NCBI GenBank assembly: GCA_903813345.2
Contig: CAIIXF020000001.1
Coordinates: 7,011,098-7,075,097, forward strand
Direction of reading: 5' to 3'
Origin: Owenia fusiformis
Lineage: Eukaryota > Annelida > Polychaeta > Sabellida > Oweniidae
DNA length: 64,000 nucleotides
Program-made: the position numbers and the translations under genes
Notes under the pieces: model-generated
Databases searched by the model: none
What the model was told of the DNA's origin: nothing
The model's input: the letters and a program-made list of their open reading frames with translations, nothing else
Shown: positions 488-55,295 of the stretch, in pieces
Numbering within the stretch: the first letter of the stretch is position 1
Layout: the number at the start of each line of letters is the position of its first letter

Positions 488-598
488 GTTTGTAATAGTA
501 TGTGGACACATCACCTGCCATTCTGTCACTTCATTTCTGAAAGATTACTTGCAGAGAGATACACACATACAAGGCATAAGAGTGATATTTGTGCACAA
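488..598 (+). CDS. Slo exon a: start of RCK1
   Basis: Acceptor tttccag, donor gtaaga. It encodes residues 1-36, beginning FVIVCGHITCHSVTSFLKDY, which matches the Rossmann start of Slo RCK1. The two Asp that line up with the RCK1 Ca2+ site (five residues apart) are here. One base at the front completes a codon from an exon outside the window. Ends in phase 2. Confidence 0.9.
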
Positions 599-3500
599 GT
601 AAGAGATACACAATACACATACATAGGCTTGCATACATCACTCTCTTTTTATGTCACCCCCAAAAATTGAATTTATTTTTCAAAACCATTTATGAGTTCT
701 CAGAAGTTCAAATCTGACTATACATTTGAGATTTGACCTTCGATGACCTTCTCAAGGTCAAAAAAAGGTCAAAGGGTATTTTTCATATTGTTTCAAATTG
801 ACCAATTTTTTCAAAATCATCTACAAGTACTCAGAAATTCAAATCTGTCATAAGATTTGAGATTTGACCTTCAATGACATTCTCAAGGTAAACAAGGCCA
901 AAAGGTCTTTTTACAAGCTGCTCAAAATTGCCCAAGTTTAATTTTCAAAATATCTAAATTGACATGAAACATGACTACTACAGTGATCATCAATTTGGCA
1001 TGTTTTATAATGTTTAACTTTTAGCAAAATCTGGTACATATTATGAGACTTGTGCTTACATTTAACTTTTGATCACTCTAGTTAGCTAAATACAGTATTG
1101 TGTGAAATTAGGTGGTAAGTGACATTTTTTCATGTTTTAACATTAAAATGCCTTGTCACCTTTCTGTCAACACAAACACAATGCTATTACTATGTTGTAT
1201 CTAAAGTTGCTAGTATTTGCAGGGATCCCCCAGGTGAGGAGCTGGAACTAGTCATAAAGACGAACTTCACTCAGGTGCGATACTTCCAAGGTTCAGTCCT
1301 CAATGATGCAGACCTTCAAGCCATGCATGTAAGTACATAGGTAGTCTAATGCACAGCCTAAACAAATACCACAATTTGAGGCAATCCTCTCCATGGATCT
1401 GTTTTCTTAGTGTCTCGCGTCTTGTTTTCTGAGAGTACATTAAGGTCATTAAATTCATTTTTGGTCAAAATCATATGATGAAAGCAAATGTTTTAGATTG
1501 TTTAATAGATTCTGCCTGTAGCTCATATTTGAGCATGTATCCTGGCCAGAGAGAGAAAACTGTCTGTTTTCGTCAAATACCATTTATAGATAAAATGACT
1601 GTAAACCTAATTCAGCTACAAGACAAGGAACAAGGAATGTTTTATTTTCAGACATATAAGAAGTCCATTCTTACTCTATTTTACTCAAAGTTATACATTT
1701 GCATGTTTATCACTTTTTCAATACTTTTCATTGTACTAAGTTGTCAATTTCATCTCCAGATGAGCTCAGCAGATGCATGTCTGATTCTATCAAACAAGTG
1801 TACACCAGAGCCCTATGAGGAGGATGTTGCCAACATTATGAGGTGTACAAGTGTTAAGACATTCAGGCCAAATATCAGAGTCATCATGCAAGTCTTACAG
1901 TATAGAAACAAGGTTAGTGGTTCAACAATGTATGCAATGTATGTAACACATTTCAATATGTCAGTTTCAAGTAAACTGAAGGTTTTGGGGAATTAGGATA
2001 TTGTCGCGTTCCAGACTTTTGCCTATAGTCTGGAAGCGATGAGTAATTTTCTACCTTATACTTCTTTGTGGGCCCAGTCCTGGTTTGGTGGACTGGATGA
2101 AACGACAGTCACAAATGGCTTCAAATTTAATACATATATTTTAACACACACTAACTATACAAGAAAATAACACACTTTAATGCTCATAGACTAAAATGTC
2201 ACTTTGATCTCTCTTTATAAGCTTGGTAGTGGCCGTTACTGCTTTCTTACTGCTTCCTATGGCTCTTAAGCTCTTTACTCGGCTCCTCTGCCTCTTTATG
2301 GCTCGTAATTTTGGCTCAGCTCCTCTGGCTCTTCGTTCAGCTCCTCTGGCTCTTGAGCTTGGCTCTTCTGGCTCTTAAGCTTGGCTCCTCTGGCTCCTGA
2401 ACGTGGCTCCTCTGGCTCTTCGTTCAGCTCTCTTTGGCTCTTTAGCCTGGCTCCTCTTGAGCTTGGCTCTTCTGGCTCCTGAACTTGGCTCCTCTAGCTC
2501 CTCGTTCAGCTCTTTGGCTCTTTAGCCTGGCTCCTCTTGAGCTTGGCTCTTCTGGCTCCTGAACTTGGCTCTTCTAGCTCCTCGTTCAGCTCTTCTGGCT
2601 CTTGAGCTTGGCTGCTCTGGCTCTTCGTTCAGCTCTCTGGCTCTTTAGCCTGGCTCCTCTTGAGCTTGGCTCTTCTGGCTCTTAAGCTTGGCTCCTCTGG
2701 CTCCTGAACGTGGCTCCTCTGGCTCTTCGTTCAGCTCTCTTTGGCTCTTGACTTTTCCAGGGAGGCTCCTCACTGCTCGATGCGATGGAAGTCTTCCTGG
2801 AACTACTTCTGTCAGCGGTGAAACCAACTGACAAAATACTTCTCTGTGTTGGGAAGTTTCTCAATTGCACCTTACAGCTAGTGGTGGAACCGAACTAACT
2901 GTAATGCAAGGTTGCTTCCAGAATGTTCCTTGCTGCTTCCTCAAGGACAACACTGAGCTCTGAATCTCTTTACAGCACTCTTAAGAATGGAAGTATGAAG
3001 CTATTCTTGCTTTCAATTAAATCTAACAAATATCTCACTAACTTAGAAAGCCTGGGACACAAAATGGCGACACACAGTAGATCTGGATACCTAATGAACT
3101 AGAAATTACGATCAGTCAGAGGCATCTCAGTAGCATGCTGATCATAAAGTCACAAATTCTGGTACACTTGAAATTCAAAGTTATAGTCAGTCAGAGGCAT
3201 CTAGTAGCATGCTGGCCATAAAATCACATAAACAAAAAGGAAAAATCTCACCCGAATCAGTGCTGCTTTCTCTTAGGCCCAAAAATTCGAGTTTCCTCTC
3301 CTGTTTCTCCTTCTAAAACGTCCTGGTGTGTCTTCCCGCTTTATTCTTCTTAACTAATCCCAAATCACTGGCTGATGGCTACTCCAAAGCACGATAATTG
3401 TAGATTTTCTTCCAAACCTCAATTCACACTGCTTCATTCAAGATGGCGACCTTCCTTTTTTCTCACGTGATGGCATGAGTCATAGGCACAGGTTATCACT

Positions 3501-6500
3501 ATTTAAAATCAGGGGCACTGCATTGCAGCAATTGAGGGGAATCCCCTTCCTATCTTGGAATACCCACTTGTGAGCAGGGGTTTTCCTATCCCTTGCATAA
3601 ATGGACTAATAACCATAAAACTGCACCAGTGGGAAAATTAAAAAGGATAAACACAAAAAATGAAATTTTCCCACAATATCATATTTTTATTTTCTTGTTG
3701 TTATGTTTTTGAATTGTGCAAATTTTCAGATGTCCTTTTATACCTGATACTCCTCAATTTAAAGGCTTAATAGCTATACATATTTTTGGGGCCTTGAAGA
3801 CGCTTGATAGCTATAAAGAGATTACTCATACTTGTCAATATGTTGTGTATTCTTATTTTCTCAATGTTGCTATTTGTGCACATTTTATCTAAACATACAT
3901 GTTGACACTCTATGTGTTACTTTCAGCAAAGGTTGAAGAATGTTCCACATTGGAATCCAACAAGGGGTGATGAGGTTATATGTGTTACTGAGCTCACCCT
4001 CAACCTGATGGGTCAACATTGCATCAGTCCATGTCTGCCAACCCTAGTTGCTAACATCATCAGGCCATACTCATCTGTGGCTAAACATAAGGTGCAGATT
4101 TTGCCTCACTTTTGGAATTATGTTGTGGTACTAAGATTGTTATTATGTAAAGTTGCTGTCACATGGGGGATACATGTATCTTGTTTTAAATCTGTTTGTT
4201 TTGCACCATGTATCCATCATGTATGCCGTGCCCCACTGTAAACCCAAAAGTATTCATACAGTGGCAAACGGTGCGCACACACAGTTTAAGGGGAGGCATC
4301 AAAAGTTCGATGTCGGATAGAAAACTAAATAAATCTAGTTAGGGGGAGGGGGCTCAAACCCATATCATATCAGTTTGCTATCCGACAAATTTCAACATTT
4401 CAAATTTTGGGCAATTTTGACTCAGAATGCCTTGGAATGGTTTAAAAATAAAGGTTTTACCTGATGCTTTCTTCGTCAAGATCATTCTAATAGACTCTAT
4501 TCTATCAATAATTGTTAAAAGCCGCAAATAACGATAGGAATTAACAAAAACTAGATCATGTTTAGCAATAATTTTTCAAATTCTCAAACCGGAAGTCCAA
4601 TATCAACTTTCATGGTATTTAGTTTTGAGGGGGAGGAGGGGGGGTCAAAGTCAAAACTGGATTTATTTAGTTTCCGATCCGACATTGAACTTTTGATGCC
4701 TCCCCTAAGTGTGACAGCTCCATATATAACTATAGAGAGTAAGTTATGATATGACCTATTCGCTCAAGATATTTTGGCACAGCCCCAGGAACATGTATAA
4801 AAAATCGAGTCATCATCTGAATAAGTAATACAGATGTCGACTCGATATTTGTATACATGTTCCCTGGGCCTATGGCTGTATTTAAGATTGTAAGATGTAT
4901 GGTGTTTATTTCAGATCTACAAACTTGAGAGCTGGGAGAAGTCTTATCATGAAGGTCTCAAAATGGAGGTCTATAATGTTGCATTACACAGAAGTTTCAA
5001 TGGCATGCCATTTAGTGAGGCCGCAAAGTAATACATTATTGCATTATTGTTTTCTGAAGCCATGCTACAGAGGCATCGGTGACATACTAGTTAAATCAAG
5101 AATAACAAATTAAAATGAAATTCTAGAAAACAAACAAGTAGCTTATTTGATAAATAACATCACGGGATAAACAGAGCAATTGAATTCAAGGTATCTAATA
5201 GTACATGGGCAGTGCCTGAGCCCTGCAATACTCGTCTGGTCTTTAAACATAAAATTGGTATTCATATATTATTGTGCCGTAATTCTCAATCTTTATTCCT
5301 TAAATAGAAATGGTCCTTATATTTTTGTAGAATATGTTACTGTGAACTGGATGTGCTCCTCATTGCCTTGTATACACCTGCTTCTCAGGGTGAAGATCCT
5401 TCAGATGTTTGTAGCACATTTCTAGTCAACCCGTCTGAGGACTCAGTACACAGTAGAAGTGTAGGGGTCTGCATAGCATCTTCTGCTGCTACAGCTAAAC
5501 AGTACGTACATATACATGACAGTTGGTGTTTGGTGGTTGGTGCTCGGCGTCTGTAACAAGTGGCAGGTGGTGACATTTTGCATGTTAATGCCTTGTTATC
5601 CAATACTATGGAGAGGTATAATTTTGATGGTTAATTAAATAACATCCATACTCATCATGTTCCATCACCATTCTGATTCTTTATGATATCATAATACGAG
5701 ATGAATTCATCCTTAAACAATATTAATTGGCTTGTTCAATACATCGCTTGTTCAATAGTCAAAACTATTGACCACTCATTGACCAATCAGAGTTGAGTAT
5801 TTTGACTAAGTTAGTAATAAAATGAATAGTACATGGTAGTTTTTTAGCTCACATGGTGAGCTTTTGCAATCGCTCACTTATCCATCTGTCTGTCCGTCCG
5901 TCCGTCTGTCTGTCCGTCCGTCAACAATAGTGGCACGTTTTAAAACCTCTGTCGATAGGATTCCTGTTTTAAGTTATTTCTGTTCAACATCAATACAGAA
6001 AACTCCCCTATGACTCCTGGTTAAAAAGCTCGCCTATTTTCAAAATGGCCGCCATTTTTGTCTCGCGAAATTCACTTTTGACTGGCACGTTTTAAAACCT
6101 CTGTCCATAGGATTCCTGTTTTAAGTTATTTCTGTTCAACATCAATACTGAAAACTCCCTTATGACTCCTGGCTCAAAAGCTCGCCTATTTTCAAAAAGG
6201 CCGCCATTTTTGTCTCGCGAAATTCACTTTTGACCTATTTCCTACCTTTACAAATAATTTCAAGTGTCCTACATTGTAAAAATCCATGTCAATGTAAAGA
6301 GTAGATGTATGAAATAATTTTGTTACGAAAAATCAGCAAAAAATTATATCCATTTTTTTTATTTTCAGCCATTTTAGTTAACATTGATTTGTCCATCTGT
6401 CTTGCAAAATCCACTTTTGGACCATTTGCCTTAAACCCTCTGTCGATAGAATTCCTGTTTAAGTTAATTTTGTTCAACATCAATACAAAAAAACTCTCCT

Positions 6501-9500
6501 ATGAGTATGACTCTTGGTTCAAAAGCTCGCCTATTTTCAAAATGGTCACCATTCTTGTCTCGCGAAATTCACTTTTGGCCCATTTCCTAGCTTTACAAAT
6601 AATTTCAGCTGTCCTGCATTGTAAAAAGCCATGTCACTGTAAAGAGTAGTTGTATGAAATAATTTTGTTACAAAAAGTCGGCAAAATATTATATCAGTTT
6701 TTTTTTTTCAGCCATTTTAGTTAACATTGATTCGTCCATCTGTCTCTCAGTCAGTCCAAAAAAGTGGCAAGTTTTAAACCTCTGTCAACACTTTTTAAAT
6801 CCTCTGTAGATAGGATTCCCGATTTAAAATAATTTTGTTCAACATCAATAAAGAAAAAAAAACTGTGACTCCTGCTTCAAAATATCGCCTAATTTCAAAG
6901 GCCACCATTTTTGTCTCGGGAAATTCACTTTTGGCCCATTTCCTAGCTTTACAAATAAGTTCAGGTGTCCTGCATTGTAAAAAGCCATGTCTTTGTAAAG
7001 AGTAGTTGTATGAAATAATTTTGTCATAAAAAATCTGCAAAAAATTATACCCGTCTTTTTTATTTTCACTTTTGAGCAACACCATGTGAGCCCAGTACCC
7101 ACGGTACTAATTTTGTATTAAATGTCTCGTTCAATATACAATAAATTGACCTGAAGATGTAGTCATTTAAATCTACATATAATCATCTTCACTCTTCAGT
7201 AATCGAGCTGTGTGTCATTAGTAAATCATATTTTAAAAAATGTGATAATATTCAAAACTTTAAAATACAACATAATTGCATGGTTGTTGTTCAAGCTTTA
7301 ATGGTTTCTTAGGTATGTTCATCGTCTGTGCCAGAATATAATTGTATGGTGGGTGTTCTAGCTAGCTCTAAGAGTTGACAATAATTGCATGGTTAGTTTT
7401 CTTGCTCTAGGATATTAACATTGTCTGTTGTTTAAGTTAGATAGTTTCATGGTTTATCTGTTAATCTATTCAATAGTTGTATATTATAACTGCATGTATA
7501 TTGAAATAAAGGTCACACAACATTATCATACATATACGTGTATACATATGTATTTCTAATTTTATTTATGAAAATTCATTATAGAGTGTCAACTTGGTGT
7601 ACACAATGTCTTCATCACCATGGTGACCATGACTGTTTCGCAGACCAGCCAACCAAATCAGTCAGCAAAAAAGGTACATTTCATTTCAAAATATGAGACA
7701 GGGGGTAGAAACAAATACAGTGAATGCATAATGGCATGTTCTTAATGCATTTAGGTTATGAACATTTCCAATGAATTGTGGGTTATGTTGTAGCAATCAT
7801 CAAATTAGTTTTGACACTAAGTGCAACAAGACTTGGCAATTTCACATGCCTCGAAAGAACACTAATTGTGATGTCTGATTTCCTGTTGGTTTTCTATTAT
7901 GGTTTATGATTTCCCATTACTTTTTTTTTTTAGAATACACACTGGTTTACAATATATTGCCACAGCCCCCAAGGCATCTTAACTCCACCACAAGTCATTT
8001 GTTACCAGATCAGTGCAGAACTGAATCTAATGGAGCTGTGAAAAATTATGAAGAAGCTATATGGGTTTCAAGGCCAGCACCTACTTTAAGGTATTTTCAT
8101 TGTTCAATCAGTGAGATTATGATTTAAAAATTCAATGTAATTTATTCTTTAAGGTAAATAATAAGCAACTCTATGGTTTACATCTATCTAGCTCTTATAC
8201 TGTACTTCTACCTGTATTGCCATGGAGTATGCTCATGTTATCATGCCTAACCATCGACAATGTACTGTGGCAAAATATATGGTTGTACACTTTAACTGTA
8301 CATTGTCATATTTGTATCAAAAATTATGATGTTTTAAAAGATTAATTTAAGGAATATTAAGTAGAATTTCATGTTTAATTTTATATACATGCTCTTCGCA
8401 AGACTTTTAACTTTCTCAATACTTTAATAGATTCTCGAGCAATACTCAAATTTTTTCTCGATAATTCCACCCACATAGTTGACCAGTTCAAAAATGTTGG
8501 TTATATTCACATGGATATGGGTGGAATTACCTAGAGAAAATTTGTGCTCTGCTTGAGAATCTGTTAACGTAATTAAAAAATTCTTGCCAAGAGCATGCAC
8601 ATTAAACATGAATTGAACATGAAATACTCAAACATATTCCTCAGATAAATATTTTAAAACCTACATCACAATTTTTACTTCAAATTACTACTTTTTGTCA
8701 CTGTATGTTGTCAATGGCTAGGCGTGACGTTATAAGCTTGGTAATATTTAAAGGAATAACAATTAACTACAGTACATGTACGTGCCGATGCCCATATATC
8801 CCCCTTATGTTTCCAAGATGTACAACCTGTAATCAATTAATGTATTACTGTATTTTTTTATTTTCATAGGGACAATATACCTTTACTTACTGTTGAAACA
8901 AGGAAGGCCAGCATATGTAAGAGACCACAATGTAAACAGAGTGTGACATCACCAACTACATCTAGATCTTACTACTGGACAAGGCAACACTCAGTCGAAG
9001 ATGCAATACTTGTAATACATTTTTACATATTTATTGAATTGTTGATTCAAATTGTTGATGAAAAACTAGCTGCATAGGTCTATTGACATAGGGTCAGAAT
9101 CGGCTTTGGCATGAGTTAGAAACCTGTCGACATCACAATTAATCACAGTACAGTTTAATGCAGAAATGCAAGAAAATATAGAGCACACCACCTTACTCTG
9201 TTTCAGACTATAAGCTCTGTGAATCTAGAAAGTAAAACACAAGTTTGATTAGAGTTCTCTTAAGTTTTTCCCAAATGAACATTTACTATTTTAACACTAC
9301 ATTCCTTGGTGTTCAGATCTTCTTTTCTTCTTCCAAACTGCTAATCTCCATTAAATATATGCTTCTTTAAATTATTTTCCAGACTTCCAAAATGGATGAC
9401 AAAAAGTGTGCTATATTACAGAAGCATATAATCGCCATAGTGATAGCCAGTGGAACTGATCCAATTATTCAGCTTGAAAACTTTGTTAAACCCTTGAGGA

Positions 9501-11819
9501 CAATAGATAAAGACTATGATGATTTGAGGCCAATAGTTCTTGTTGGTGACAGATATTACCTGGAGAGGGAGTGGGCTAGTTTACAACATTATCCAAAGAT
9601 TTATATTCATGAAGTAAGATCATCACTGGAATAACTATTAGTATAATTCATGTGTTTCAGGTATAAATATCATCTAGTAATCCAAGTATATTCAAACATA
9701 AAGCCTTATATTCCATGTAATAATTGGGTACGAATTGCAAATTGACCATACACATATATTGGTTGTATAATGCCATTTTTCAGTTCCAAACGACCCAAAC
9801 AACAGATAAGGTCCTTGACTTCAAAATGTTTAAGTACCTGATATCCATATTTTTCAGAGTTACCCCATTTTACCTCAAGTTTTAGAAGACGTGAATATTA
9901 GACAAGCGTCATCCTGTGTCATCCTTTCTGCTGCTAGAGGGAGCTGTTCACACCCAGAATTACGGGACAAGGATGTTGTCATGTGTGCCTTGGAAGTGCA
10001 GTCCCTACTTAGAGAAAACCTGGATTGCAGAATGGTGAATTATGCAGGTGCATCAAATCCAGGTTAGACATAATTAATATAAGGAAAGGAACTACTTTTA
10101 TATGTAGATATGGTACTAGCCCACCAGAAAATATCAGTGTTCATTCATATTTCAAGTTTTTCTCAAAAAGTGTAAATGAACTGCTTGAATTTTGGTGTTT
10201 ATACAAGTTTGATAGTTGACGTCATGCCTGTTTATCAAATGGCAGATAGTTACATTATACTGCAAACCATTTAAATTTGTACGTGCATAATGTATGGTAC
10301 TAAATTGGGTGGATTCTAAAAGATTTGTTTGCCTCATGTTACTTCAGAATACACTGTGCAATCATCAGACTACAACTTTTCTCCAACACCAACTAAGACA
10401 AACCTTCTAGTCGAGACAGCCAATGATTCCAGCGTGCAGTATCTAGGCAGAGAAAGCACACTGTCCATAGCCATCATGGATTCACTCGTTGTGTCAGTGA
10501 GTATAATCATACTAGATTGTATACAACACTCACAATTGCATGTCAAACACTGCTTATGGACCCATATGTCCATAGAGGGAAAAGAATGTTTCAAACAACA
10601 TTCATTTCAACATATCCAAAACTTAAAACTTTTAATTTTTTTTTAATTTTTAAACCTTTGAAACTTTCCCGGGAGCAGGATATATTGTATCTGCCTGGAG
10701 CGGGACATATACAATATATCCTGCCCGCTCCTTAGATATGATGTATATTCCCAGGTGATATCTACCCCGAACCCACTCAAGTATGAGATACTGGTTGATA
10801 TTTTCTAGACATATTACTCCCCCTGTGTATCCATGGTGGTTAATACTTTGTCCAGTGGTAGCAGTAGTGATGTAGCATCATTCACAAATCACAAAGGGGA
10901 GCAGACCAGTAGGAATCAAGTCACAACAATAACACTTGAGGATGGAGAATATTCTGAGTATAAGGTATACAGTATTGAATAATAGATCATTTCATTTAAG
11001 TTTTAAAGTGAAGATGAACCATGTTGTCACTTGAAATAACATGTTGTTTGATCTTTTCTGTGACATAATAACATTGTAATATGACCTTAAAATCAGTTGT
11101 GGTGAAAGTAACTTTCAAAGGCAATTTACATAAAAATATGTGTCTGAGCGTTGGCAATGTTTACTTTCAATTTCAACAACTTATTCTTTTATATTCAGAA
11201 TGGTTACTATGGGGATCTATTTTCCCATGCACTAGTGACCAATGGTGTGTTGTGTCTGGGAGTACGGAGAAAGTGCAGCCAAACCTTTGGGCAGGAAAAC
11301 AGGAGAGTCATCACAAATCCACAAAGCAGTTTTAGACTGAATTCTTCTGACAGTGTAAGAAAATGAACGATCTGATACAAAAATCTGGATCCTTAATTTT
11401 TGATTACATATACTTTTAATTGCCACTATTGTTTGATTAATATTGTATTTTGATATAGTATTTTTGTGTATTTACACTTGTATTTTCTGGACCATGATTC
11501 TTATTTATTTATTAACCATCAATGAAGATGACTTGGACATTTTGAAACAAAGTGAAATTTATGAGCAAAAATATAGTAGACATATTTTATTAACTTGTTC
11601 AGCATCAGGTCTGGGAACCCCTCCCTCCCTCTGACCCTCCCCATCTACATGTACATGGCTTTCCCTCTTGGAGTGGTTAGTAGGGAGGGGGGGGGGACTG
11701 GGGCAATGGTATTGAACTAAAATATTGAAGTAATTGCTCTCTATTTTCAGGTATATTGTTTGTTGCCTCAAGAAAACCCAATGCAGGACAATGGGAACAT
11801 TACCATATCTGAAATATGA
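488..11819 (+). CDS. Slo-family (BK-like) potassium channel, C-terminal gating ring, 5'-partial gene
   Basis: Large-conductance Slo channels are plasma-membrane K+ channels whose cytosolic tail carries two RCK domains forming a ligand-sensing ring. Fifteen exons join in frame to 718 residues plus stop: 488-598, 1223-1328, 1760-1912, 3927-4091, 4915-5027, 5331-5501, 7585-7673, 7934-8090, 8870-9011, 9383-9613, 9858-10047, 10348-10496, 10809-10964, 11199-11354, 11751-11819. RCK1 opens with VIVCGHITCHS (residues 2-12) and contains QGSVLNDADL, SADACLILSNK and ANIMRCTSVK; RCK2 is residues 403-718. The paired Asp of RCK1 (FLKD and the Asp five residues later) are kept. The calcium bowl of Slo1 (NVQFLDQDDDDD) is replaced by SVQYLGRESTLS, so the high-affinity Ca2+ site is absent. 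The S0-S6 membrane part must lie left of the window. Divergence fits a Slo3-like or fast-evolving Slo1 paralogue better than canonical Slo1, which is very conserved in animals. The exact orthology is inference. Confidence 0.93.
651..1158 (+). repeat. Degenerate copy of the TGTCACC / AGGTCA-rich element, in a Slo intron
   Basis: It begins with a form of the tgtcaccacc terminus, carries two units of the phrase with gttctcagaagttcaaatct and gaccttctcaaggtca, and ends in a form of ggtggtgacattttgtcatg with atgccttgt. It is a short relative of the array at 49612-52310. Confidence 0.65.
1223..1328 (+). CDS. Slo exon b: RCK1
   Basis: Acceptor tttgcag, donor gtaagt. It encodes residues 37-72 with FTQVRYFQGSVLNDADLQ, near identical to the FTQVEFYQGSVLNPHDL block of vertebrate Slo1. 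Phase 2 in, phase 0 out. Confidence 0.93.
1760..1912 (+). CDS. Slo exon c: RCK1
   Basis: Acceptor ctccag, donor gttagt. It encodes residues 73-123: MSSADACLILSNK, EEDVANIMRCTSVK and NIRVIMQVLQYRNK, the best conserved stretch of Slo RCK1 (Slo1: SADACLILANK, EDASNIMRVISIK). Phase 0 at both ends. Confidence 0.94.
2002..3675 (-). mobile_element. Candidate solo LTR (TGT...ACA) in a Slo intron
   Basis: A 1,674-bp unit begins tgtcgcg and ends cccaca and is flanked on both sides by atat (1998-2001 and 3676-3679). On the minus strand it would start TGTGGGAAAAT, a common LTR start. No protein domain is seen inside. An alternative is a DNA element, since the outer gatattgt/acaatatc is also an inverted repeat. 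Confidence 0.4.
2240..2760. repeat. GGCTC-rich minisatellite
   Basis: Irregular tandem repeats of ggctcctctggctcttc and cgttcagctctttggctc phrases, with a larger unit of roughly 80-100 bases in which the tagcctggctcctcttgagc phrase recurs. It lies inside the candidate LTR. Open frames across it are repeat artefacts. Confidence 0.85.
3927..4091 (+). CDS. Slo exon d: RCK1
   Basis: Acceptor tttcag, donor gtgcag. It encodes residues 124-178: LKNVPHWNPTRGDEVICVTE, then LMGQHCISPCLPTLVANI, matching Slo1 [20 protein letters not shown] and GLSTMLANLF. Phase 0 at both ends. Confidence 0.93.
4286..4709. mobile_element. MITE with about 32-bp terminal inverted repeats
   Basis: Left end ttaaggggaggcatcaaaag and right end cttttgatgcctcccctaa pair over about 32 bases with two or three differences. 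It lies in the Slo intron between exons d and e. A diverged relative lies at 12568-12806. Confidence 0.8.
4774..4880. repeat. Short foldback element
   Basis: Arms around ccccaggaacatgtata (left) and tatacatgttccctggg (right) plus inner aatcgagt/actcgat pair to form a hairpin of about 105 bases, ending about 35 bases before exon e. Confidence 0.65.
4915..5027 (+). CDS. Slo exon e: RCK1
   Basis: Acceptor tttcag, donor gtaata. It encodes residues 179-215: IYKLESWEKSYHEGLKMEVY and RSFNGMPFSEAA, matching the Slo1 DTWQKYYLEGVSNEMY and SAFVGLSFPTV blocks. Phase 0 in, phase 2 out. Confidence 0.92.
5331..5501 (+). CDS. Slo exon f: RCK1
   Basis: Acceptor ttgtag, donor gtacgt. It encodes residues 216-272: CELDVLLIALYTPASQ, FLVNPSED and VGVCIASSAATAKQ, matching Slo1 VKLKLLMIAIEYKS, ILINPGNH and LGFFIASDAKEVK. 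Phase 2 at both ends. A truncated repeat begins about 20 bases after its donor. Confidence 0.92.
5515..5602 (+). repeat. Deletion remnant of the TGTCACC-family element
   Basis: It carries only the ggtggttggtgctcggcgtc tract, ctgtaacaa, and the 3' end ggtggtgacatttt...catgttaatgccttgtt, joined directly. The repeated body seen at 49850-52260 is missing. Confidence 0.7.
5847..7091 (+). mobile_element. Hairpin-plus-CCGTC element, family B, in a Slo intron
   Basis: The ends are gctcacatggtg (5847-5858) and caccatgtgagc (7080-7091), a perfect 12-bp inverted pair. At the left the terminus also folds on itself (gctcacatggtgagc). Then comes a tract of tctgtccgtccgtccgtc, then about four copies of a block with acctctgtcgataggattcc, gttcaacatcaatac, tcgcctattttcaaaatgg and tctcgcgaaattcacttttg. 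No conserved protein is visible. Confidence 0.75.
7585..7673 (+). CDS. Slo exon g: Cys/His segment after RCK1
   Basis: Acceptor attatag, donor gtacat. Of the three frames only this one joins both neighbours without a stop. Residues 273-302 include WCTQCLHHHGDHDC, in the place of the Slo1 YCKACHDD segment; the CxxC spacing is kept and extra His residues are added. Phase 2 in, phase 1 out. Confidence 0.82.
7934..8090 (+). CDS. Slo exon h: RCK1-RCK2 linker
   Basis: Acceptor is a long T tract plus tag; donor gtattt. Residues 303-354 start EYTLVYNILPQPPRH and end VSRPAPTLR. The linker is poorly conserved in the family, so support is the open frame, splice sites and phases. Confidence 0.78.
8349..8645. 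mobile_element. Near-palindromic MITE
   Basis: The left half (ttaaggaatatt, aatttcatgttta, atgctcttcgcaaga, gattctcgagca) is matched in inverted order by the right half (tgcttgagaatc, tcttgccaagagcat, aaacatgaattgaac, atattcctcag). It lies in the Slo intron between exons h and i. Confidence 0.75.
8870..9011 (+). CDS. Slo exon i: RCK1-RCK2 linker
   Basis: Acceptor ttcatag, donor gtaata. Residues 355-402 include SYYWTRQHSVEDAIL, in the place of Slo1 STGMFHWCAPKEIEKVIL just before RCK2. Phase 2 in, phase 0 out. Confidence 0.8.
9383..9613 (+). CDS. Slo exon j: start of RCK2
   Basis: Acceptor ttccag, donor gtaaga. Residues 403-479: HIIAIVIASGTDP, LENFVKPLRT, and VGDRYYLEREWASLQHYPK, which align with Slo1 HVVVCIFGD, LRNLVMPLRA and VGSIEYLKREWETLHNFPK. 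Phase 0 at both ends. Confidence 0.94.
9858..10047 (+). CDS. Slo exon k: RCK2
   Basis: Acceptor tttcag, donor gtgcat at 10048. An earlier gtgaat at 10035 would put the next exon out of frame. Residues 480-542 contain ASSCVILSAARGS and LRDKDVVMCALEVQS, matching Slo1 CDMCVILSANQNN and LQDKECILASLNIKS. Phase 0 in, phase 1 out. Confidence 0.9.
10348..10496 (+). CDS. Slo exon l: degenerate calcium-bowl exon
   Basis: Acceptor cttcag, donor gtgagt. Residues 543-592: NLLVETANDSSVQYLGREST then SIAIMDSLVVS. Slo1 has ELVNDTNVQFLDQDDDDDP then FAVSVLDSLMS here, so the flanks are conserved while the run of aspartates is missing. Confidence 0.92.
10655..10805 (-). repeat. Copy of the CCCGGGA/ATATATC repeat family
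   Basis: It contains an inverted pair around ggatatattgtat / atacaatatatcc, then gatatctaccccgaacccac and tcaagtatgagata, which is the reverse complement of 33285-33345. It sits immediately before Slo exon m. Confidence 0.65.
10809..10964 (+). CDS. Slo exon m: RCK2
   Basis: Acceptor ttctag, donor gtatac. Residues 593-644 start TYYSPCVSMVVNTLSSGS, matching Slo1 TYFNDNILTLIRTLVTGG. The rest is a low-similarity acidic/polar stretch. Phase 0 at both ends. Confidence 0.87.
11199..11354 (+). CDS. Slo exon n: RCK2
   Basis: Acceptor attcag, donor gtaaga. Residues 645-696: NGYYGDLFSHALVTNGVLCL and NRRVITNPQSSFRL, matching Slo1 [20 protein letters not shown] and KRYVITNPPYEFEL. Phase 0 at both ends. 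Confidence 0.93.
11751..11819 (+). CDS. Slo exon o: last coding exon
   Basis: Acceptor tttcag. Residues 697-718 (VYCLLPQENPMQ to ISEI) and TGA. Slo1 reads DLIFCLMQFDH here and continues about 60 residues further; this protein stops soon after, so it lacks the long Slo1 tail. AATAAA occurs at about 12379, a possible poly(A) signal. Confidence 0.88.
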   Translation, partial: VYCLLPQENPMQDNGNITISEI

Positions 11820-12074
11820 TCAAGATCACAATCTGTGGTGTGAAACAGTGGCAGGATTTAGTGGAAATGCTTATTGGAATAACATGTTAGATTTGAAACT
11901 TTGCTAATGTATATATCATCGAATGGGATTTTAGGTCTGCATTGTATTGTATTTTCGTTACCGCCATATTTTGGCGAGCAGTACCTCATTGGTATATTCC
12001 ATATTTTACTTACGAGAACATGTATTTACACTCGAAGACAGAGCCAGTAACCCCTCCTAGGAGGAGCCCTGTGT

Positions 12075-15583: not shown

Positions 15584-15678
15584 ATCCTCCAAACGCATCC
15601 TCCATACATCAACCACTACGTTCCTTCCTTTTTCTGGAAGAACGAGGTCCAAGTTCTGGAAGCCTGCGTTTGGAGGAT
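15584..15678. repeat. 95-bp hairpin element
   Basis: Perfect 14-bp inverted ends atcctccaaacgca and tgcgtttggaggat, with a second nested inverted pair near tccttcc...ggaagaacg. It resembles a very short MITE. Confidence 0.6.
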
Positions 15679-15924: not shown

Positions 15925-16217
15925 TTACCTTCTCAAATTTTTTGGATGACTAATTTTTTCTTTTACTTCTTCCGCCATAGGCTTTAATTTCTCAACATAG
16001 TCCCCATGTCTTTTCTCAGATATTGTAGCTAAAAGTCCCCCTTCACATTTAGGCTTGTTACCATCTGAATAGTCTATATAGCTACCATCCAGTGTTGTCA
16101 TTTTGCCTTTTATGGCATTTAATATTGCATTTCCTGCACATATATCCCATTTCTTAATGAGTGTTGTATGAACATAGGCATCAACGTTACCCAGGGCAAC
16201 TTCTATAGATTTAAACC
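15925..16217 (-). CDS. BPNT2: BPNT2 exon 5, last
   Basis: Acceptor tttcag. It encodes [37 protein letters not shown], and CEGGLLATI, ending [10 protein letters not shown] and TAA. It matches human [18 protein letters not shown] and IEGGLLASI. Confidence 0.95.
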
Positions 16218-19200
16218 CTGAAAATATTGAGATAATAGAATGTTATTTTACAACTATAGTTAAATACAATTTGTCTCTTTGTCATGCTTCAAGCCGCATC
16301 AAGCAAATATCAAATCACATATCATATCAAAATTCTTCAATAGGTCCATCACAAAAAAACAAATTAAATATCTTATTTTTAAATTAAGAATTTATCATCA
16401 TTTATATTGTGAAACTCTTGTCATGTGTTAATGAAAAGGTAGTACAGTATAACCAACCATGCAATTTGGTACAGTAAACCCTGTTACACTAAAAGGTGTT
16501 TGGTGTTCCATTTATAAAGGTTTGATCAATATTAATCGGTGTGTCACAGAATGTGAACTGGTTTCATTTTACAAAGGTGTTCTGCAGGGTGAGCCAAAAA
16601 ACAGTAACCAAAACATTAAAATTTGTTTGGTCTTTTTTGACTCACCCTGTACTTTACTGATTTAACTGAATTTTAGTCCTGTCTCTCACAATTATTCTTT
16701 GAAATCTTACCTGCTCCACCTGCTGGGACAACTTTGGTTTTCTCACCAAATGTTTTCTTTGCAATACTTTCCACTTCACCAGCATGTGACCTAGAGACTA
16801 TAATCTTGTATTCGTTCCCCTCTTTCTCTTTATCCTGGTCTTCTGGCACTATAAGATTCTTGGAGTGGCCATAGCCTTCCCATGCCCATACTGCAAGTAG
16901 TCAATTACAATGGTGATGGGTGGTCAAAATATATTATATGACAATACTCCAGAATCTGGGTTTTTACTGAAATATTGCAGTTGAGTTTATACAAACATTT
17001 TGTCTTTCTCAAAAATTTACTACACACATCATTGCCATTGATTTCATAAGGCTGCAAATGTCAGCAAACCTTTTTAACTGCTACAACAACAACTCTAGGG
17101 TATGGTAAATTCCATCATACAATTTTGTCAAGCTTATTTACATTTTCTTGATCTTTTTTATATGACACATACCAGGTCGTTCAATAAGTTCACGGAAAAA
17201 TGCTCTCATTTCAAAGATTCTTGATATTTTCCCATAAAATTTTCACACAATGTGCAAAAAATACTTTCTCATCGATTCCTAAAATATCAGCATCTCATAT
17301 TTGATTGGTCAAAAACAAGGGTTACTATGGTAATTTGACTTTTGGGTAGGCGGGGCACTTTTTACGTCACACTATTTACCATTACAGATATCTATCAATA
17401 TGTGCAAATGAAGGATCCCTATTTTTTATTTGTTCTTATTTATATTACAAATGTTCTGAGGGAAAATTGATGTTCATTGTTATCACGAACATTTCTGAAA
17501 TCATGCTAGTCAATGCTGTACCAGTGGACCAGAAAATCAACAAAGAGTAATGCTATGGAAAGTTGATTAAAACTTAACCATCCAGCCAAACTCTAACTTT
17601 TTCCATCGGGATAATGCAGCCGATCACACTGCTAATATTGTGCAGGAAACCATCACAATTAATTGGCAAAATAGATGGCAAAGCTGCCCCAAGCTACATA
17701 ATCTCCAGATGAGATAATCCTTGATTTTGCTGTTTTCACGAGGATGAAGGATCAGCTAAGAAGTGCACTTTATGGAACAATGAAACAACTTTCGACTGTA
17801 GTCAAGATTGCCTTTTAAACAAGTTTTCCAGATGGCTTCAGAGCACTGTATCGTCAATAGGCTAAATGCAAGCGACTGTGCATTAAACATGAGGCGGGAG
17901 AATATTTCTGAAACCTTATGGGACAATAGTTGTAACTATTACATTAAGTTATATCATGTACAAGTAGAAGAGGAAATTCATGTGATATGTATACTCACAA
18001 ATTGCCTACTATTCTTTTGTTTTTCTAATAAATAATCAATGTGACGTAAAAAGTGCCCCGCCTACCCAAAAGTCAAGTTACCATAGTAACCATTATTTTT
18101 GACCAATCAAATAAGAGATGCTGATATTTTAATATTCAATCAGAAAGTATTTTTTATTCATTGTGTGAACATTTCATTAGAAATTATCAAAAATCTTTGA
18201 AATGAGAGCATTTTTCCGTGAATTTATTGAACGACCTGGTAGTCATGTTTATTACTCCAAGGGATATCAAATTATTGCTAAAATCATGGTATGTCCCTTT
18301 AATATATAATATTAGGCAAAGGTTATGAAATCTTGTGTTTAACATTATAATTTTGAGTTGCAGAAGAATGAATGATTTTTTTATTTCTTTAGTACCTTTA
18401 TATCTATGTATAATCAAACATAAAGTACACTAGTTTTGGTATGCTAGGATAATGGTCTATTTTATATCATTAATGGACATAATCAACAGAAGTTTGAAAT
18501 GAATAAGCTGAGACATGCTAAACATTATTTTCATTTACCTTTGCCTTTTATGTATTCAATTATAACCTACTTGTTTCTCCCTCCCCTTTCTGAGCGAAGG
18601 GTTTGTGTATGATCCCCATGACAGGACGTCCCCTCAATGCTACACATGTCATCACAGTAACATACTCTGTAAGCTTTTCTAAAATGAAACACATCAAAGG
18701 AATTAAAAAAATACAGAATGATTTTCATGATCCTAGAGATTTTGAACATGAAAATTACACAGCTTTTTTTGATTTTTTTCCTGACAAATCTAATTTTAAC
18801 ATAAAATGACAGAAATGCTTTAAAATGCAATAATGGCAATTTTGAAGTGATAATATTAAAGTTTGTTTCAAGACCGCATATCGTGAAATAACTTCAGTAT
18901 TTGAGTACTTAATTCCTTTCTAATTGGACATATTTTAATTTTGGTATTTTTGGTGTCATACAATTCCTTGAACAGATCTGGGAGTACTTATTCAAGGTTA
19001 TTCAAAATCTGTACTACCTGTGCACATTTTGTGTAATTTGCATTCATAAGAACAGGACAAAATACTTAGGTCCTCGCATATAAATCATTTAGGCCAAGAA
19101 AAATACTCTCATTCCTGGTCAACAAGCTTCAAAATTAACACCTTCCTGCCGGACTAATTTTTTTCCTTGAACCTTTGCCGCCAAACTCTTATCACAAAAC

Positions 19201-22200
19201 TTCCTTGGCCAATACTCTGCGATTTTACTCTCACTTTAATAATCATCAAAATATGTAAGATAACATTCTCACATGTTTTAAAAACAGACATAATGTTGCC
19301 TTACAGGTGATACTATTGAATGGGCATTTAATTTGAATTATTGATCTTAACCAACAGCTTCATCCAACAATTCATCATAAATTACCATTTGAAGTACTTC
19401 ACACAAGTACAAGCTTTACATGTAAGCATATGTTTTGGTAATAAACAAGTATTGATTCGCAGCATGTATGAAAATACCATTTTTAGAAATTATAGAAGAA
19501 GGTTTTTAGCAATAATTATAGATTTTTACATGACTAAGGGTTTAACACAGTGAAACCTGTAAAGGTGAACACTTCTACAAATGGGACACTTCAATAAGGA
19601 AAACTTTAAAGGTGCCAAAGGTGTTTCGCTTATACAGGTTTTACTTCTTGTATTCACTTTTATCATTGACTTGTAAAGGAAAAACTGTAAAAAATTTCCT
19701 AATCATCATTTTCCCAATCGAATTTTTCCCAATCACCATTTCAGTTTATAATGTGTTTATGGACTGGGATTTTGAACCAAATGATATATAGATATGTTAG
19801 TTAGAGTATTCATGTAAAATTACATCAATATTTTGATCTGGTCCCTTTGTTAGAAAGAAATCAATATCTCACTACATGTTGATTCAGGAGTAAAAACATT
19901 AAATAACCTGTTACATTGAAAGAAATACATTACTTCATGGCTGTGTAAATATAGAATAACAGCATAGAATAAGATTTCTGAGAAACACTTTTCTAAAATA
20001 AACATTAATATTAAACTATCAAAAAATTAAAATGTTCAAAATCCTGTGATGCCATTGCTGTACAATGCAAGAAAGGAGATGTAGTTTGTCACCCTTGTCT
20101 TTCCAATCAAGATCTATCAATTATTTCGCATTTGAAAGAGCCTATGGATTGGCATTCAGAGTTTTAGTGGATTTTGAGTGGACCAACATGAAAAAAAGTT
20201 CAGCAGTCCAATGCGGACATTCCTGAAGTCAACCATGTGCATCCTGAAGTTAATGTACATAATCTCATGCATTATGTTTTGTATCATGAGACCTTGTGTG
20301 ATGCCGTTAAGTTCTGCTATTCTGTGTGACATTCCAAAAAGTCTCAGAATAATTAAAACTTTGAACAGCGAAAATAAATTCTTTTGTACATTTGCATTTG
20401 TGATGCATCTTATTTGTCTTGAATACTCAAATATAATTGGTTACTATTTCTGAATTTTTCTTTTTGAGCCAATCAGAACACTTATAACAAAACATGACAA
20501 AGCTTTTAAGAAGAGAGTAGTATCTAACATTGGACTATCTTAATAATTTCATTTCTTTCTTTCTGGTTTGATAGGTCAAAAAAACAATTTAGAGGCAATT
20601 CAAATTACAGGAAACCAAAAGCTAGCTATCATTTAATTCAAAGTCTTCAAAAAGTCAATGTCAGAGTCTAGAAAAAGCAACTTAAAGTAAGCTATATTAA
20701 TGGGACCATCTTTATGTTCTTTATGATTAGATTTTGATGAGTAACATGCAACGTGAAAACGTCTTGCCACCTGACAAAACCCCCTTTCTATAGGACCCTG
20801 AAAGGGCTGGCATGATTTTGAAAAGCATACCATTTGTATCTTTCTTGATATTAGAGTATGACATTCTGGAATATAACAGAAATCAAATCTGTTGAACTTA
20901 CACCCATATTCCAAAATAAATGTCAAAAAACAAAAACATTATCATCCGATGCACCTACTAGAAAACTATGGACGGCAACTAAAACATCAATGTATAATAA
21001 ATTCAAACCTGTGTATTCTTGTGTTGCATCTAAGGGGTCCATCCAGACTGTGACATCATCTAGGGCTACTTGGCTATCAGAATTTGTCCTATCCAGTACC
21101 TCAGCAAGACGTTTACTGACTGTTGGAATTGATTTAAAGTCAGCTGGTTCATGTTCATGCTCTTCAGAGACAACCTGTATGAATGCAATTCATAATGTAA
21201 ACTTATAAAAACTTATATAAAAACACCACAGTAATAGCCTTTGATGGGACGATATGCAGGAAATAGGTCGGGAAATCTATCATGCCAGGGGCATGCCAGG
21301 TTCATTTTTTTGGTTTGCTCTTTCATGAATGTGCAAAAGTGAATAAACTTAACTCTATTCCTTAACGAAGAGCTAGTAGTTTGAAACGCTCGCAGAATTT
21401 ACTGACTCAAGAAGCAAAATGAACATATGACCTCTGCAATTTGAGATAACTGGAACTTTTGTGACTTTGACAGAACATAGGGAATGAATGTTAGCATCTA
21501 TTGAAGTAAACAAGATAATCCAGTGAAAACTGATCTACTTTTTATGAAAGAAAAAGGCCATGAACAAAGCAACATGTTAATTTATATGACATCATAGATT
21601 AATATAGAATCAATATTGATGTACATGTATGTGATGTTAAGATTATCTGTTTGTTTAGTTGTCGCTGGGGAAACATGTGACTGATGTCATAATTGATGTG
21701 ATATTTCATATCTTCGAATCACAACCTCATCATATGACGACTTGATAGTTGCCTTACCAACTCGCCATATAAGCTAATAAAGACGGGCTTACTGAACTGG
21801 AAGTCCCATGAAGGGTTCAAGCCTGATCCATAGAAAGGATGCTCCACCCAATCCGTGTAGGCCTTCGTAAAAATGGGTGTATGCACTGATACACAGACAT
21901 ACAAGTATACACTGCAGCCTTTTATACAAGCTGTGGACCACTCAGTCAAACACCCAGAATGAGATAACGCACCAAAAAATTTGTCTGAACTGGGAATCAA
22001 ACCCGGGCCAAGCGATAGTGGTAACCTAGCCTCTCCCAATGAGCCATAGCGAGTGGACCGAAAGTATAGACTTTTGAAAAATAAGTGGCTTAATGAGACG
22101 TCTAAATTAGTGAATAACATAAGGTAAATGTAAGTCTATATATCTATCTATGTCTAGGCCTATAGCTATTCCCGTACATGTAATGTAGCTATTATTCTAT

Positions 22201-22591
22201 TGAATAAATTTTGAATTTATCAAGTTTTAATCTACATGACACAATTTTTAGCTCTATTGATACTTACATTTATGCCTGGAAAGGATTTGAAGTATCCATA
22301 GTATATAGCTCGATGTGATTCCATATCACCACTTGTGACATACTCATTTTTACCCTGTTGAGTTTTTCCCTTGACTTTTTCTGCCAAGTTGTCATCATTT
22401 CTGATTTCCCTCACTCTTTCACCGCCTCTTTTTGCAAGTTCAATGCTGACTGACAATAGTTCTCTCATGCTAATAGTTTCCCGCCTTTTAAATATATCTA
22501 TTCCACCTAATAAGTAGAAGACAACACTGCCAAACAAGACTAGAATCAGGACAATCCCGATAGGGTTTACCTTGACACTTACTGCAGCCAT
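15925..22591 (-). CDS. BPNT2: BPNT2 (IMPAD1), Golgi-resident 3'-phosphoadenosine 5'-phosphatase
   Basis: The enzyme hydrolyses adenosine 3',5'-bisphosphate, the by-product of sulfotransferases, to AMP in the Golgi lumen, and so supports glycosaminoglycan sulfation. Five minus-strand exons join in frame: 22591-22268, 21174-21009, 18678-18571, 16890-16711, 16217-15925, giving 356 residues (human is 359). Residues 10-28 are a single membrane anchor near the N-terminus, as expected for a type II Golgi protein. Family motifs are KGKT, TSGD (86-89), EE (112-113), [12 protein letters not shown] with metal-binding Asp 154 and 157, the PAGGAG turn, and KKWDICAGN (281-289) with Asp 284. The start chosen is the Met of [12 protein letters not shown] because it gives the human length; in-frame Met codons 15 and 57 bases upstream are alternatives. 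An intron holds a mariner relic. Upstream is UBE2W in divergent orientation. Confidence 0.96.
16585..16649. mobile_element. 65-bp mini-MITE
   Basis: The ends cagggtgagccaaaaaa and ttttttgactcaccctg are an inverted pair. The terminus resembles that of the 1.29-kb element at 44053-45338. It lies in a BPNT2 intron. Confidence 0.55.
16711..16890 (-). CDS. BPNT2: BPNT2 exon 4
   Basis: Acceptor ttgcag, donor gtaaga. It encodes [32 protein letters not shown] and VVPAGGAG, matching human [20 protein letters not shown] and IIPAGGAGYK. Confidence 0.93.
17172..18239 (+). mobile_element. Mariner-family transposon relic in a BPNT2 intron
   Basis: The 1,068-bp unit is flanked by TA on both sides (17170-17171, 18240-18241). 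Long inverted ends of about 200 bp begin ccaggtcgttcaataag. The interior plus strand keeps transposase traces: [18 protein letters not shown] at about 17600-17655 (second catalytic Asp block of mariner DDE enzymes) and [14 protein letters not shown] at about 17715-17760 (third Asp block), separated by frameshifts and stops. It is inactive. The inverted ends are much longer than those of standard mariners. Confidence 0.85.
18571..18678 (-). CDS. BPNT2: BPNT2 exon 3
   Basis: Acceptor attttag (not the nearer ttacag, which would delete the residues EKLT), donor gtaggt. It encodes [18 protein letters not shown] and [10 protein letters not shown], matching human EDLRKYVTTMVCVAVNGK and PMLGVIHKPF. 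Confidence 0.92.
19549..19645. mobile_element. 97-bp pogo/Tigger-like mini-MITE
   Basis: Ends agtgaaacctgta and tacaggttttact are inverted with one mismatch. The interior has gaacac, gggacactt and ggtgtttcgctt. Related ends occur near 35410-35572 and 59478-59542. Confidence 0.6.
21009..21174 (-). CDS. BPNT2: BPNT2 exon 2
   Basis: Acceptor atacag, donor gtttga. Residues 109-163 begin VVSEEHEHE and end [15 protein letters not shown], the metal-binding motif shared with inositol monophosphatases. Phase 0 in, phase 1 out. Confidence 0.93.
21885..22058 (-). mobile_element. tRNA-derived SINE, copy 2
   Basis: The minus strand reads tggctcattgggagaggc (A-box-like) and gggtttgattccc (B-box-like), then aaattttttggtgcg and attctgggtgtttgac. 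It shares head and body with 12075-12243. An open frame across it is fortuitous. Confidence 0.78.
22268..22591 (-). CDS. BPNT2: BPNT2 exon 1
   Basis: Encodes residues 1-108: the membrane anchor [38 protein letters not shown], and [14 protein letters not shown]. Donor gtaagt. The open frame continues 57 bases upstream to another Met (22648). Confidence 0.93.
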
Positions 22592-53600: not shown

Positions 53601-55295
53601 CACCATCATTGGGTGACGACATACAGAACAAGTTTCAGAAAAATATTATGGAATAGATAGGTTATTGATGGAATATGAATTTTTCCTCAAGAAAATATGA
53701 TATTGGCCTCGAAAAATATCATATTAACACTCGGGCTGTCACCCTCGGTCAATATGATATTTTCCCTCGAAATAAAATTCATATTTCATCCCTCCCATTA
53801 AATAACCTCTATATATCCCGCTGTATCTCCCACTCAGCAATTCCTGGGAATTTTTTTCAGTGCATGTTCTCATAATCTACTAAGTATAGGATTAATCAGT
53901 TATTTAATGCTCGGTTTGCATACAGGGTTTAAGCCTCGGGAAATACAATGTATATAGCCTCTGTCCCTGTGGTCGCTAGGGTTCATATATTATATTTCCC
54001 TCAGGATATATCCTGTATCCAAAACTTCCCATTAAATAACCCTCATAGTCATATAGATATTGATGATGCGAATTACAGGTCATTAGGCCTAAGTTTAAAT
54101 ATTTTTGGTTGATTTTAGAATCAGAATTCCAGAAACGTCAATTTAAATTTAACAGTTGACCTTTAATATACTGTTCATACCCTTCTGTACGTACCTTATT
54201 GAGCATAGGTTGAGATTGCGTCATCCTGTCTAGTGATTCTTGGTCAACTGCCAGTAGATTGTTGAAGCTAGGGTTGTTCTCTGGTAAGCTCTGTGTATCA
54301 GGGCATCCTCCCTTTCCTTCGTTGGTTTTACACTCACTGGGTGTGTTAATGTCCTTTATAGCAAGGGCATATGTGGCAGCTGGGGGGCGATTGGCCTGAG
54401 GTTTGAAATCAATGTGTTTGTTGATTTGTTGATTGAGGTTGTTCCTGCTGTCTGAGACGACATCAACAAGACTGAGTTCAACGCTACGTGCGAATGCATC
54501 TCTTAAGTTTGATGAGTGGTTAAAACTCAGTATGCTTCCATTGCGTTTGGCTTGTGCTAATGCCTCACGACGTTTCAGTGCTTTTTCACGCCGCATCTGA
54601 TCTTTGTAGAACTCAGCAAAATTGTTAACTATAATTGGAATAGGCAGGGCAATAACTAATACCCCACATATACAACACACTGCACCAACTACCTTACCCA
54701 GAGCTGTCTTAGGGTAGACATCACCATAACCTACTGTCGTCATTGTAATAGCTGCCCACCAAAACGTCTGAGGAATACTGATGTATTTGGGATTTTCGTC
54801 TTTTTCAGCAAAATATGCTAAACTTGAAAACATGAGTATGCCTATAGCTAAGAACATCATGAGCAAACCAAGCTCTTTGTATGATCTTTGTAATGTATAG
54901 CCCAATGACTGCAATCCTGTGGAGTGGCGGGCAAGTTTCAGAATCCTTAATATCCTCATAATACGAAAGATTTGGACAACTCTTCTGACATTATGGAATT
55001 GTTCCGTACTTCTGTTTGACTCAACCAACCCCAAGGAGATAAAATATGGTAGGATTGCTAGTAAATCTATTATATTTAAAGGTGCTTTGAAGAACTTCCA
55101 TTTATTTGGTGCTGCCCAAAATCGGGCTAAATACTCCAATGTGAACCAAGCTATACAGACTGCTTCTACTAATGCCAGCTTCTCATTATCAGTTGGCTGG
55201 TCATCTTTGTCACGTCCCTGTATTGATGGCATAGTATTTAATGTTAGGGCAATTGTGGATAGGACTATGAATAGTACTGACACTACCGCTACTAC
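41067..55295 (-). CDS. Shab/Kv2 voltage-gated potassium channel, S1 to C-terminus (T1 exon outside window)
   Basis: Kv2 channels are tetrameric delayed rectifiers of the plasma membrane. Three minus-strand exons, 55295-54195, 43858-43186 and 41611-41067, join in phase to 772 residues plus stop. Numbered from the first residue here: S1 about 1-19, S2 43-61, S3 73-91, S4 104-123 with regularly spaced Arg ([17 protein letters not shown]), S5 140-162, selectivity filter TVGYGD 187-192, S6 202-227 with the Kv2-type PIP bend. [25 protein letters not shown] and TQSQPMLN mark the Kv2 tail and separate it from Kv1, Kv3 and Kv4. The rest of the tail is low-complexity, rich in Ser, Asn, Lys and His. The N-terminal T1 domain should lie on an exon right of 64000; I found none between 55300 and 64000. 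It corresponds to KCNB1/KCNB2 of vertebrates and Shab of insects. Confidence 0.95.
42771..43075. mobile_element. 305-bp MITE with 20-bp ends and 9-bp target duplication
   Basis: Perfect inverted ends caaggaggattggctcccag and ctgggagccaatcctccttg, flanked by gatcaccga on both sides (42762-42770, 43076-43084). It inserted in a Kv2 intron about 100 bases from exon A. A 9-bp duplication fits Mutator-like transposition. Confidence 0.88.
43186..43858 (-). CDS. Kv2 C-terminal exon A
   Basis: Acceptor attttag, donor gtatgt, 224 codons plus one base. It begins [20 protein letters not shown], then [34 protein letters not shown] and [13 protein letters not shown]. No domain is recognised. Assignment to Kv2 rests on strand, phase 0 entry after the membrane exon, and lack of any other gene. 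Confidence 0.8.
44053..45338. mobile_element. 1.29-kb TA-flanked foldback transposon
   Basis: TA lies at both edges (44051-44052, 45339-45340). The ends are cagggttggccaaaaaaa and tttttttggcccaccctg, and homology between the arms runs at least 170 bases (caccaggggtgtcatga versus tcatgatacccctggtg). Inner segments such as gttgacctaattttcacc and ggtggaaatggggtcaac are mirrored as well. No transposase is visible. Confidence 0.82.
46118..46310. repeat. Two-copy tandem duplication
   Basis: Two copies of roughly 95-105 bases share gtggaatcatcaga, ttttttggaggcacag, aaattggttcatatttgac and tggatgtact. Confidence 0.8.
49230..49302 (-). repeat. Dispersed repeat R1, copy 2
   Basis: Inverted match to 23949-24026 and 53328-53402. 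The match to the 53-kb copy extends on to the gaagtccccatgatgataaa segment at about 49322. Confidence 0.68.
49612..52310 (+). mobile_element. Hairpin element, family A, with a 17-unit AGGTCA-rich array
   Basis: The terminus tgtcaccacc (49614-49623) is inverted at ggtggtgaca (52283-52292). The left 50 bases, which form a hairpin, are duplicated exactly (49611-49660 and 49661-49710). Then comes a ggcgtccggcgtctggcgtc tract, then about 17 units of roughly 125-160 bases holding gttctcagaaattcaaatct, gacatttgaccttcaatgac, cttctcaaggtcaaaaaggt and ttcaaaatcatctacatg. It ends gtcatgttaatgccttgtt. Relatives lie at 651-1158 and 5515-5602. Confidence 0.85.
52389..52827. mobile_element. 439-bp TA-flanked MITE
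   Basis: Perfect 14-bp inverted ends ctgtaaaacgggta and tacccgttttacag with TA at both sides. The interior has repeated ttttagcgatt, ttagcgaaatg and tagcgcggg phrases. Confidence 0.82.
53328..53402 (+). repeat. Dispersed repeat R1, copy 3
   Basis: Contains cagaaagtacttatggtgaa, gatatgactgtctt and aatcacttgccatactgcac, as in copies 1 and 2. Confidence 0.68.
53655..54055. repeat. Foldback repeat with CCTCGAAA/ATATCAT phrases
   Basis: Mirrored segments: gaatatgaatttttcctc versus cgaaataaaattcatatttc, and gaaaatatgatattgg versus caatatgatattttcc. It then has gcctcgggaaatacaatgta with its partner. Related to 33285-33515. Confidence 0.65.
54195..55295 (-). CDS. Kv2 exon with the whole membrane domain
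   Basis: Acceptor cttgcag, donor gtacgt, 367 codons, phase 0 at both ends. It begins [17 protein letters not shown] (S1) and ends SQPMLNK. The frame stays open past the donor to 54138, but the strong donor within the TQSQPMLN motif makes read-through unlikely as the main form. A single exon carrying S1 to the proximal tail is typical of Kv2 genes. Confidence 0.95.

Follow-up and report, generated by a model that had tools for sequence, protein, structure and literature searches.

Does a Slo channel gene without a calcium bowl, lying beside BPNT2, UBE2W, and Kv2 in an annelid genome, mean that Slo3 is older than the vertebrates and that the chromosome 8 linkage of these genes is ancient? This question is raised by a stretch of 64,000 nucleotides in Owenia fusiformis (C1:7011098-7075097), hereafter the window, on a 62.2 Mb contig that makes up about 12.5% of a genome of 498,259,871 bases in 525 contigs. 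A preliminary description had leaned towards yes on both parts. Our analysis suggests another answer: C1 very probably shares the ancestral linkage group of human 8q (BPNT2, UBE2W, and Kv2, in shuffled order), and the Slo of the window is a divergent Slo1-type duplicate with convergent loss of the bowl, not an orthologue of Slo3, a sperm channel in humans.

The window holds, in order, a Slo (BK-type) channel gene (+), BPNT2 (-), UBE2W (+), and Kv2 (-), and their presence, as initially described, is borne out by Pfam matches, spliced alignments, and a PDB match. Gene models for UBE2W and BPNT2 were obtained by protein-to-genome spliced alignment with human proteins as queries, to which 107 of 142 residues (UBE2W) and 134 of 287 aligned residues (BPNT2) are identical. 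The neighbors of Slo are as follows.

15955..22477, minus strand: BPNT2 homologue (Inositol_P family), 5 exons found; spliced alignment, Pfam
24098..26076, plus strand: UBE2W homologue, 4 exons found; spliced alignment, Pfam
54141..55319, minus strand: Kv2 (Shab/KCNB) main exon with S1-S6; PDB match, genome search, Pfam

The best PDB match of the Kv2 main exon is KCNB1 (E 3.3e-135), and the first of the 22 matches listed in the genome search (E up to 1e-30) is the window itself, the next best being 50% identical. The N-terminal T1 exon of Kv2 was looked for between 55319 and 64000 and was not found. Long low-complexity open frames on the minus strand downstream of the main exon (41070-41696 and 43121-43858) are possibly Kv2 C-terminal exons. 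Eight of the 22 listed places matching Kv2 are on C12; these are Kv-type channel exons and suggest a Kv expansion. Two further open frames were noted, one at 61001-61582, which is a tandem repeat of MQDNALAQYYPMYWHPLFYISF-like units and not a gene, and a long one upstream of Slo (window coordinates -18111 to -17032) that encodes a C2H2 zinc-finger protein. The statement that all four genes have human relatives on chromosome 8 holds only loosely: judged from a single gene, Kv2 predates the division into KCNB1 and KCNB2, and Slo is no closer to KCNU1 than to KCNMA1.

The genome search with BK_channel_a hit six loci, with nine matches in all. The gene on C3 is a Slo2, its RCK1 piece matching KCNT1 (1.1e-80) better than KCNMA1 (1.1e-18 at best). 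The other five loci hold Slo1-clade genes, namely the window gene and the four below, all described from gene models.

C9, 26.9M: canonical Slo1, intact bowl
C11:31.26-31.29M: Slo1-clade duplicate, near-intact bowl, R213 lost
C5:27.77M (C5a): Slo1-clade duplicate, near-intact bowl, R213 lost
C5:11.90M (C5b): Slo1-clade duplicate, degraded bowl, R213 lost

The passages on Slo1 in PMC5337896 give generally one such gene per metazoan species, a rule from which the five genes depart. Among the loosely matching papers listed by a literature search for lophotrochozoan Slo1 expansions, none was on topic by title, and such expansions may already be published. Twelve intron positions of the window Slo match those of the C9 gene, 11 exactly and one at 608 versus 606 (positions 204 and 255 were counted by hand on the C9 alignment). 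Because intron positions are mostly common to the duplicates and the canonical gene, the former are DNA-level duplicates and not retrocopies. It is likely that the window Slo is one of four divergent, intron-bearing Slo1-type duplicates beside the canonical gene on C9, and that it reached C1 by duplication.

The place of these duplicates was examined with a full tree of eleven rows and 943 columns (LG+C20+F+G4) and with gating-ring trees of nine rows, or eight without C5b, from which mouse Slo3 and worm SLO-1 were dropped, their letters being provisional; no tree has an outgroup. A tree with KCNU1 and KCNMA1 had been proposed as a check in the preliminary description, and in it the window Slo falls among Slo1 duplicates, which are lineage-specific as far as one genome shows; a placement of this kind had been named there as refuting its idea. 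More specifically, it groups with the C11, C5a, and C5b genes at 99/100 on the full set; on the gating ring the duplicates' grouping has 82/99, and 69/14 without C5b. Also on the full set, the canonical C9 gene pairs with Aplysia Slo1 among the references used (87/94), and the seven canonical and vertebrate rows come together (99/100). The highest identity of the window Slo to a canonical Slo1 is 37% (Aplysia). Its end branch is very long (2.64 on the full set, at least 3.6 on the gating ring), which makes its exact place unsure.

A single clade of all five genes, when imposed on the tree, is weakly rejected (AU p 0.038), and thus an older lophotrochozoan origin of the duplicates is possible. 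The four would then stem from a duplication before the split from Aplysia and have been lost or overlooked elsewhere, which agrees with their place outside the C9 and Aplysia pair and outside the group of seven rows. However, long branches tend to be pulled outwards, molluscs are represented by a single sequence, the p value is near 0.05, and the gating-ring branch holding the duplicates apart falls to the low values given above without C5b. We consider an origin of this age possible but doubtful. A fuller form of the idea, offered tentatively, is a second old lophotrochozoan BK clade of R213-less paralogues predating the split from molluscs, in which the bowl passes from near-intact (C11, C5a) through degraded (C5b) to absent (window), one member having independently reached the Slo3 condition.

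The window Slo begins upstream of the window, with its S0 to pore exons at window coordinates of about -6515 to -579. The exons placed by spliced alignment, in one case together with the BK_channel_a search, are listed below.

near -6515, plus strand: S0 exon
near -5299, plus strand: S1 exon
near -2826, plus strand: S3 exon
-1193, plus strand: S4-S5 exon
-749, plus strand: pore exon
6..100, plus strand: S6 end and linker to RCK1
488..598, plus strand: RCK1 start (KFVIVCGH...)
1223..1328, plus strand: RCK1
1760..1912, plus strand: RCK1
3927..4091, plus strand: BK_channel_a start, end at 4079 or 4091; also BK_channel_a search
4915..5027, plus strand: exon with the E535 position
5331..5505, plus strand: BK_channel_a end, end at 5501 or 5505
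9383..9613, plus strand: RCK2
9858..10062, plus strand: RCK2, end differs between models
10398..10496, plus strand: exon at the expected calcium bowl (NDSSVQYLGRE...), bowl deleted, 5' end uncertain
10809..10964, plus strand: RCK2, end at 10964 or 10971
11199..11357, plus strand: RCK2 end, start at 11149 in one model

The gene matches Pfam Slo-like_RCK at 2.5e-28 and BK_channel_a at 3.9e-21 and, the S2 exon excepted, has the S0-S6, TVGxGD pore, and tandem RCK domains with BK_channel_a that mark the Slo1 clade. The S2 exon was not found, the best candidate scoring 21 when 20 shuffles scored 13 to 27 and the C11 control 107. A frame at -4139 to -4038 has a D and a hydrophobic pattern like those of an S2 exon, with a score not above chance. 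Repeats with LALLAPELGSSGS-like frames lie within a Slo intron (2208-2720). Since S2 was not found, the window Slo could be partly degraded, and its extreme divergence would also suit a decaying copy, or pseudogene. However, the exons that align, which run from S0 through RCK2, have open frames and splice sites at conserved positions, and we regard a pseudogene as unlikely.

With regard to linkage, we take BPNT2, KCNB2, UBE2W, STAU2, ELOC, EYA1, and YTHDF3 to be on human 8q, KCNU1, VDAC3, KAT6A, and AP3M2 at 8p11, and KCNMA1, VDAC2, KAT6B, and AP3M1 at 10q22. Searches with markers of these regions gave the following places.

C1:31.63M: ELOC, 8q marker, from the marker search
C1:40.40M: EYA, 8q marker, from the marker search
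C1:15.03M: STAU, 8q marker, 66% over 50 residues (runner-up 38%, on C7)
C1:52.03M: YTHDF, 8q marker, from the marker search
C9:19.20M: VDAC, 8p11/10q22 marker, 182/283 identical to human VDAC1
C9:35.99M: KAT6, 8p11/10q22 marker, 82% in the best exon versus 66-73% for the best exons elsewhere
C6:20.64M: AP3M, 8p11/10q22 marker; C1 holds weaker relatives

Another Porin_3 locus, on C10, was rejected as VDAC (7/27 residues, not VDAC-like), and a family search with nlz1 (NocA/ZNF703 marker) found no match anywhere in the genome, which is uninformative for linkage. All four 8q markers searched are on the chromosome of the window; if genes fell on chromosomes in proportion to length, the chance of this would be about 0.0002. 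The four 8p11/10q22 markers searched gave three orthologue-like matches, two on C9 with canonical Slo1, one on C6, and none on C1, so that the window Slo has no 8p11-type chromosomal neighbors among VDAC, KAT6, and AP3M. EYA and YTHDF appear among the genes that PMC6585022 lists in the Hsa 1/2/8/20 paralogon. As in the 8q ancestral linkage group or this paralogon, EYA, YTHDF, STAU, ELOC, Kv2, UBE2W, and BPNT2 are here on one chromosome, but in shuffled order, and Slo shows no sign of belonging.

In this genome some 28 kb separate UBE2W from the Kv2 main exon, in human presumably about 1 Mb separate it from KCNB2, and both distances count for UBE2W and Kv2 (and BPNT2) being a conserved microsyntenic block kept by regulation. 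However, STAU2 and ELOC, which we take to be the human neighbors of UBE2W, have their counterparts 8 and 25 Mb away in this genome, and such a block seems to us quite improbable. A search of the literature on UBE2W-KCNB2 synteny found no paper. The ancient linkage proposed at the outset stands at chromosome scale for BPNT2, UBE2W, and Kv2, and fails for local order, given these two distances, and for Slo, given VDAC and KAT6 on C9. In the shared linkage group that we favor, C1 and human 8q would both descend from one common ancestral group that placed the three genes on one chromosome, with gene order within it shuffled later.

The Slo was correctly described as bowl-less: at the bowl of human Slo1 its sequence has GRE and then continues, with 18 residues fewer. 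These 18 missing residues span 21 alignment columns, three of which are filled only in Slo3. The window Slo resembles canonical Slo1/KCNMA1 (BK alpha) in S0, S1, S3-S6, the TVGxGD pore, the tandem RCK domains, and the intron positions, and differs in the deleted bowl and in changes at R213, E374, E399, N449, and R514. With Slo3/KCNU1 it has in common the lack of a calcium bowl and a GFG filter, its own filter being TVGFGD; GFG is also found in canonical Aplysia Slo1, and this rules it out as a mark of Slo3. Unlike the window Slo with its deletion, Slo3 carries another stretch of residues at the bowl site. We take D367, E535, and R514 to form the RCK1 Ca2+ site, and the roles of Ca2+ and Mg2+ residues are assumed generally. 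The window Slo, with no bowl and an incomplete RCK1 site, keeps D367 and E535 and has lost R514, whereas human Slo3 has K at both D367 and E535 in the same alignment. Slo3 retains E374, which all four duplicates have lost. At R213 in S4 the duplicates read N, A, I, and L, so that 4/4 have lost the arginine, whereas Slo1 of human, fly, and worm, Slo3 of human and mouse, and the canonical gene on C9 retain it; the letters of the Slo3 membrane part, S4 included, and of the worm and mouse rows are provisional. Since one bowl was deleted where the other has different residues, and since the residue patterns differ, the two losses look independent, and the likeness of the window Slo to Slo3 would be convergence.

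The trees bear on the same point. Human Slo1 and Slo3 are sisters at 100/100 in all three, namely the full set with human and mouse Slo3 and the two gating-ring trees, and this contradicts a Slo1/Slo3 split before the vertebrates, the early origin at first suggested for this gene. On the full set, a constraint joining the window Slo to Slo3 lowers the log-likelihood by 22.4 units (AU p 0.014), and forcing all four duplicates with Slo3 gives p 0.0015; union of the window Slo with the whole vertebrate Slo1 and Slo3 clade is not rejected (p 0.145). Thus, the window Slo is not monophyletic with vertebrate Slo3 on the full set, while the gating ring does not reject their union (p 0.139; without C5b, p 0.164). 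The passages on Slo3 in PMC5337896 place its origin at one of the vertebrate genome duplications, with only Slo1 found in amphioxus, Ciona, sea urchin, acorn worm, fly, and nematode.

The chromosomal position of KCNU1 adds to this argument. We presume that 8q is separate from 8p in the amniotes of the table cited next, which does not itself give this. A 4/8p association is marked in 13 of the 15 amniote columns of that table, chicken and opossum included (Table 2 of PMC3204295). The ancestral karyotypes reconstructed in PMC9550189 place 8p together with segments of 4 or 2. If 4/8p was associated and 8q separate, as presumed, then KCNU1 sharing a chromosome with 8q genes reflects a later rearrangement and not ancient linkage. 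A window gene that is an invertebrate Slo3 still linked to its 8q neighbors, from a Slo1/Slo3 split predating vertebrates, would agree with the absent bowl, the GFG filter, and the gating-ring trees, but is very unlikely in view of the sister relation of Slo3 and human Slo1, the rejection on the full set, the Aplysia filter, the opposite patterns at R213, D367, and E535, and the 8p position of KCNU1, the 8p markers VDAC and KAT6 being on C9 and not C1.

As a divergent Slo1-type duplicate, the window gene is predicted from its TVGFGD filter to make a K+ channel subunit, with two of three S4 charges and a partial RCK1 Ca2+ site. With these two features, the channel probably responds to calcium little or not at all, and its voltage gating is probably weak. 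It may act on its own or modulate the canonical BK subunit as a partner, the chances being about even.

A pre-vertebrate Slo3 is not supported, and the result weighs against it. The locus also illustrates that sharing a human chromosome can mislead, as the 8p11 markers are on C9 and C6 and the 8q markers on C1. Finally, a multi-gene BK family is added for an invertebrate, and its natural series of bowl loss invites comparison with Slo3.
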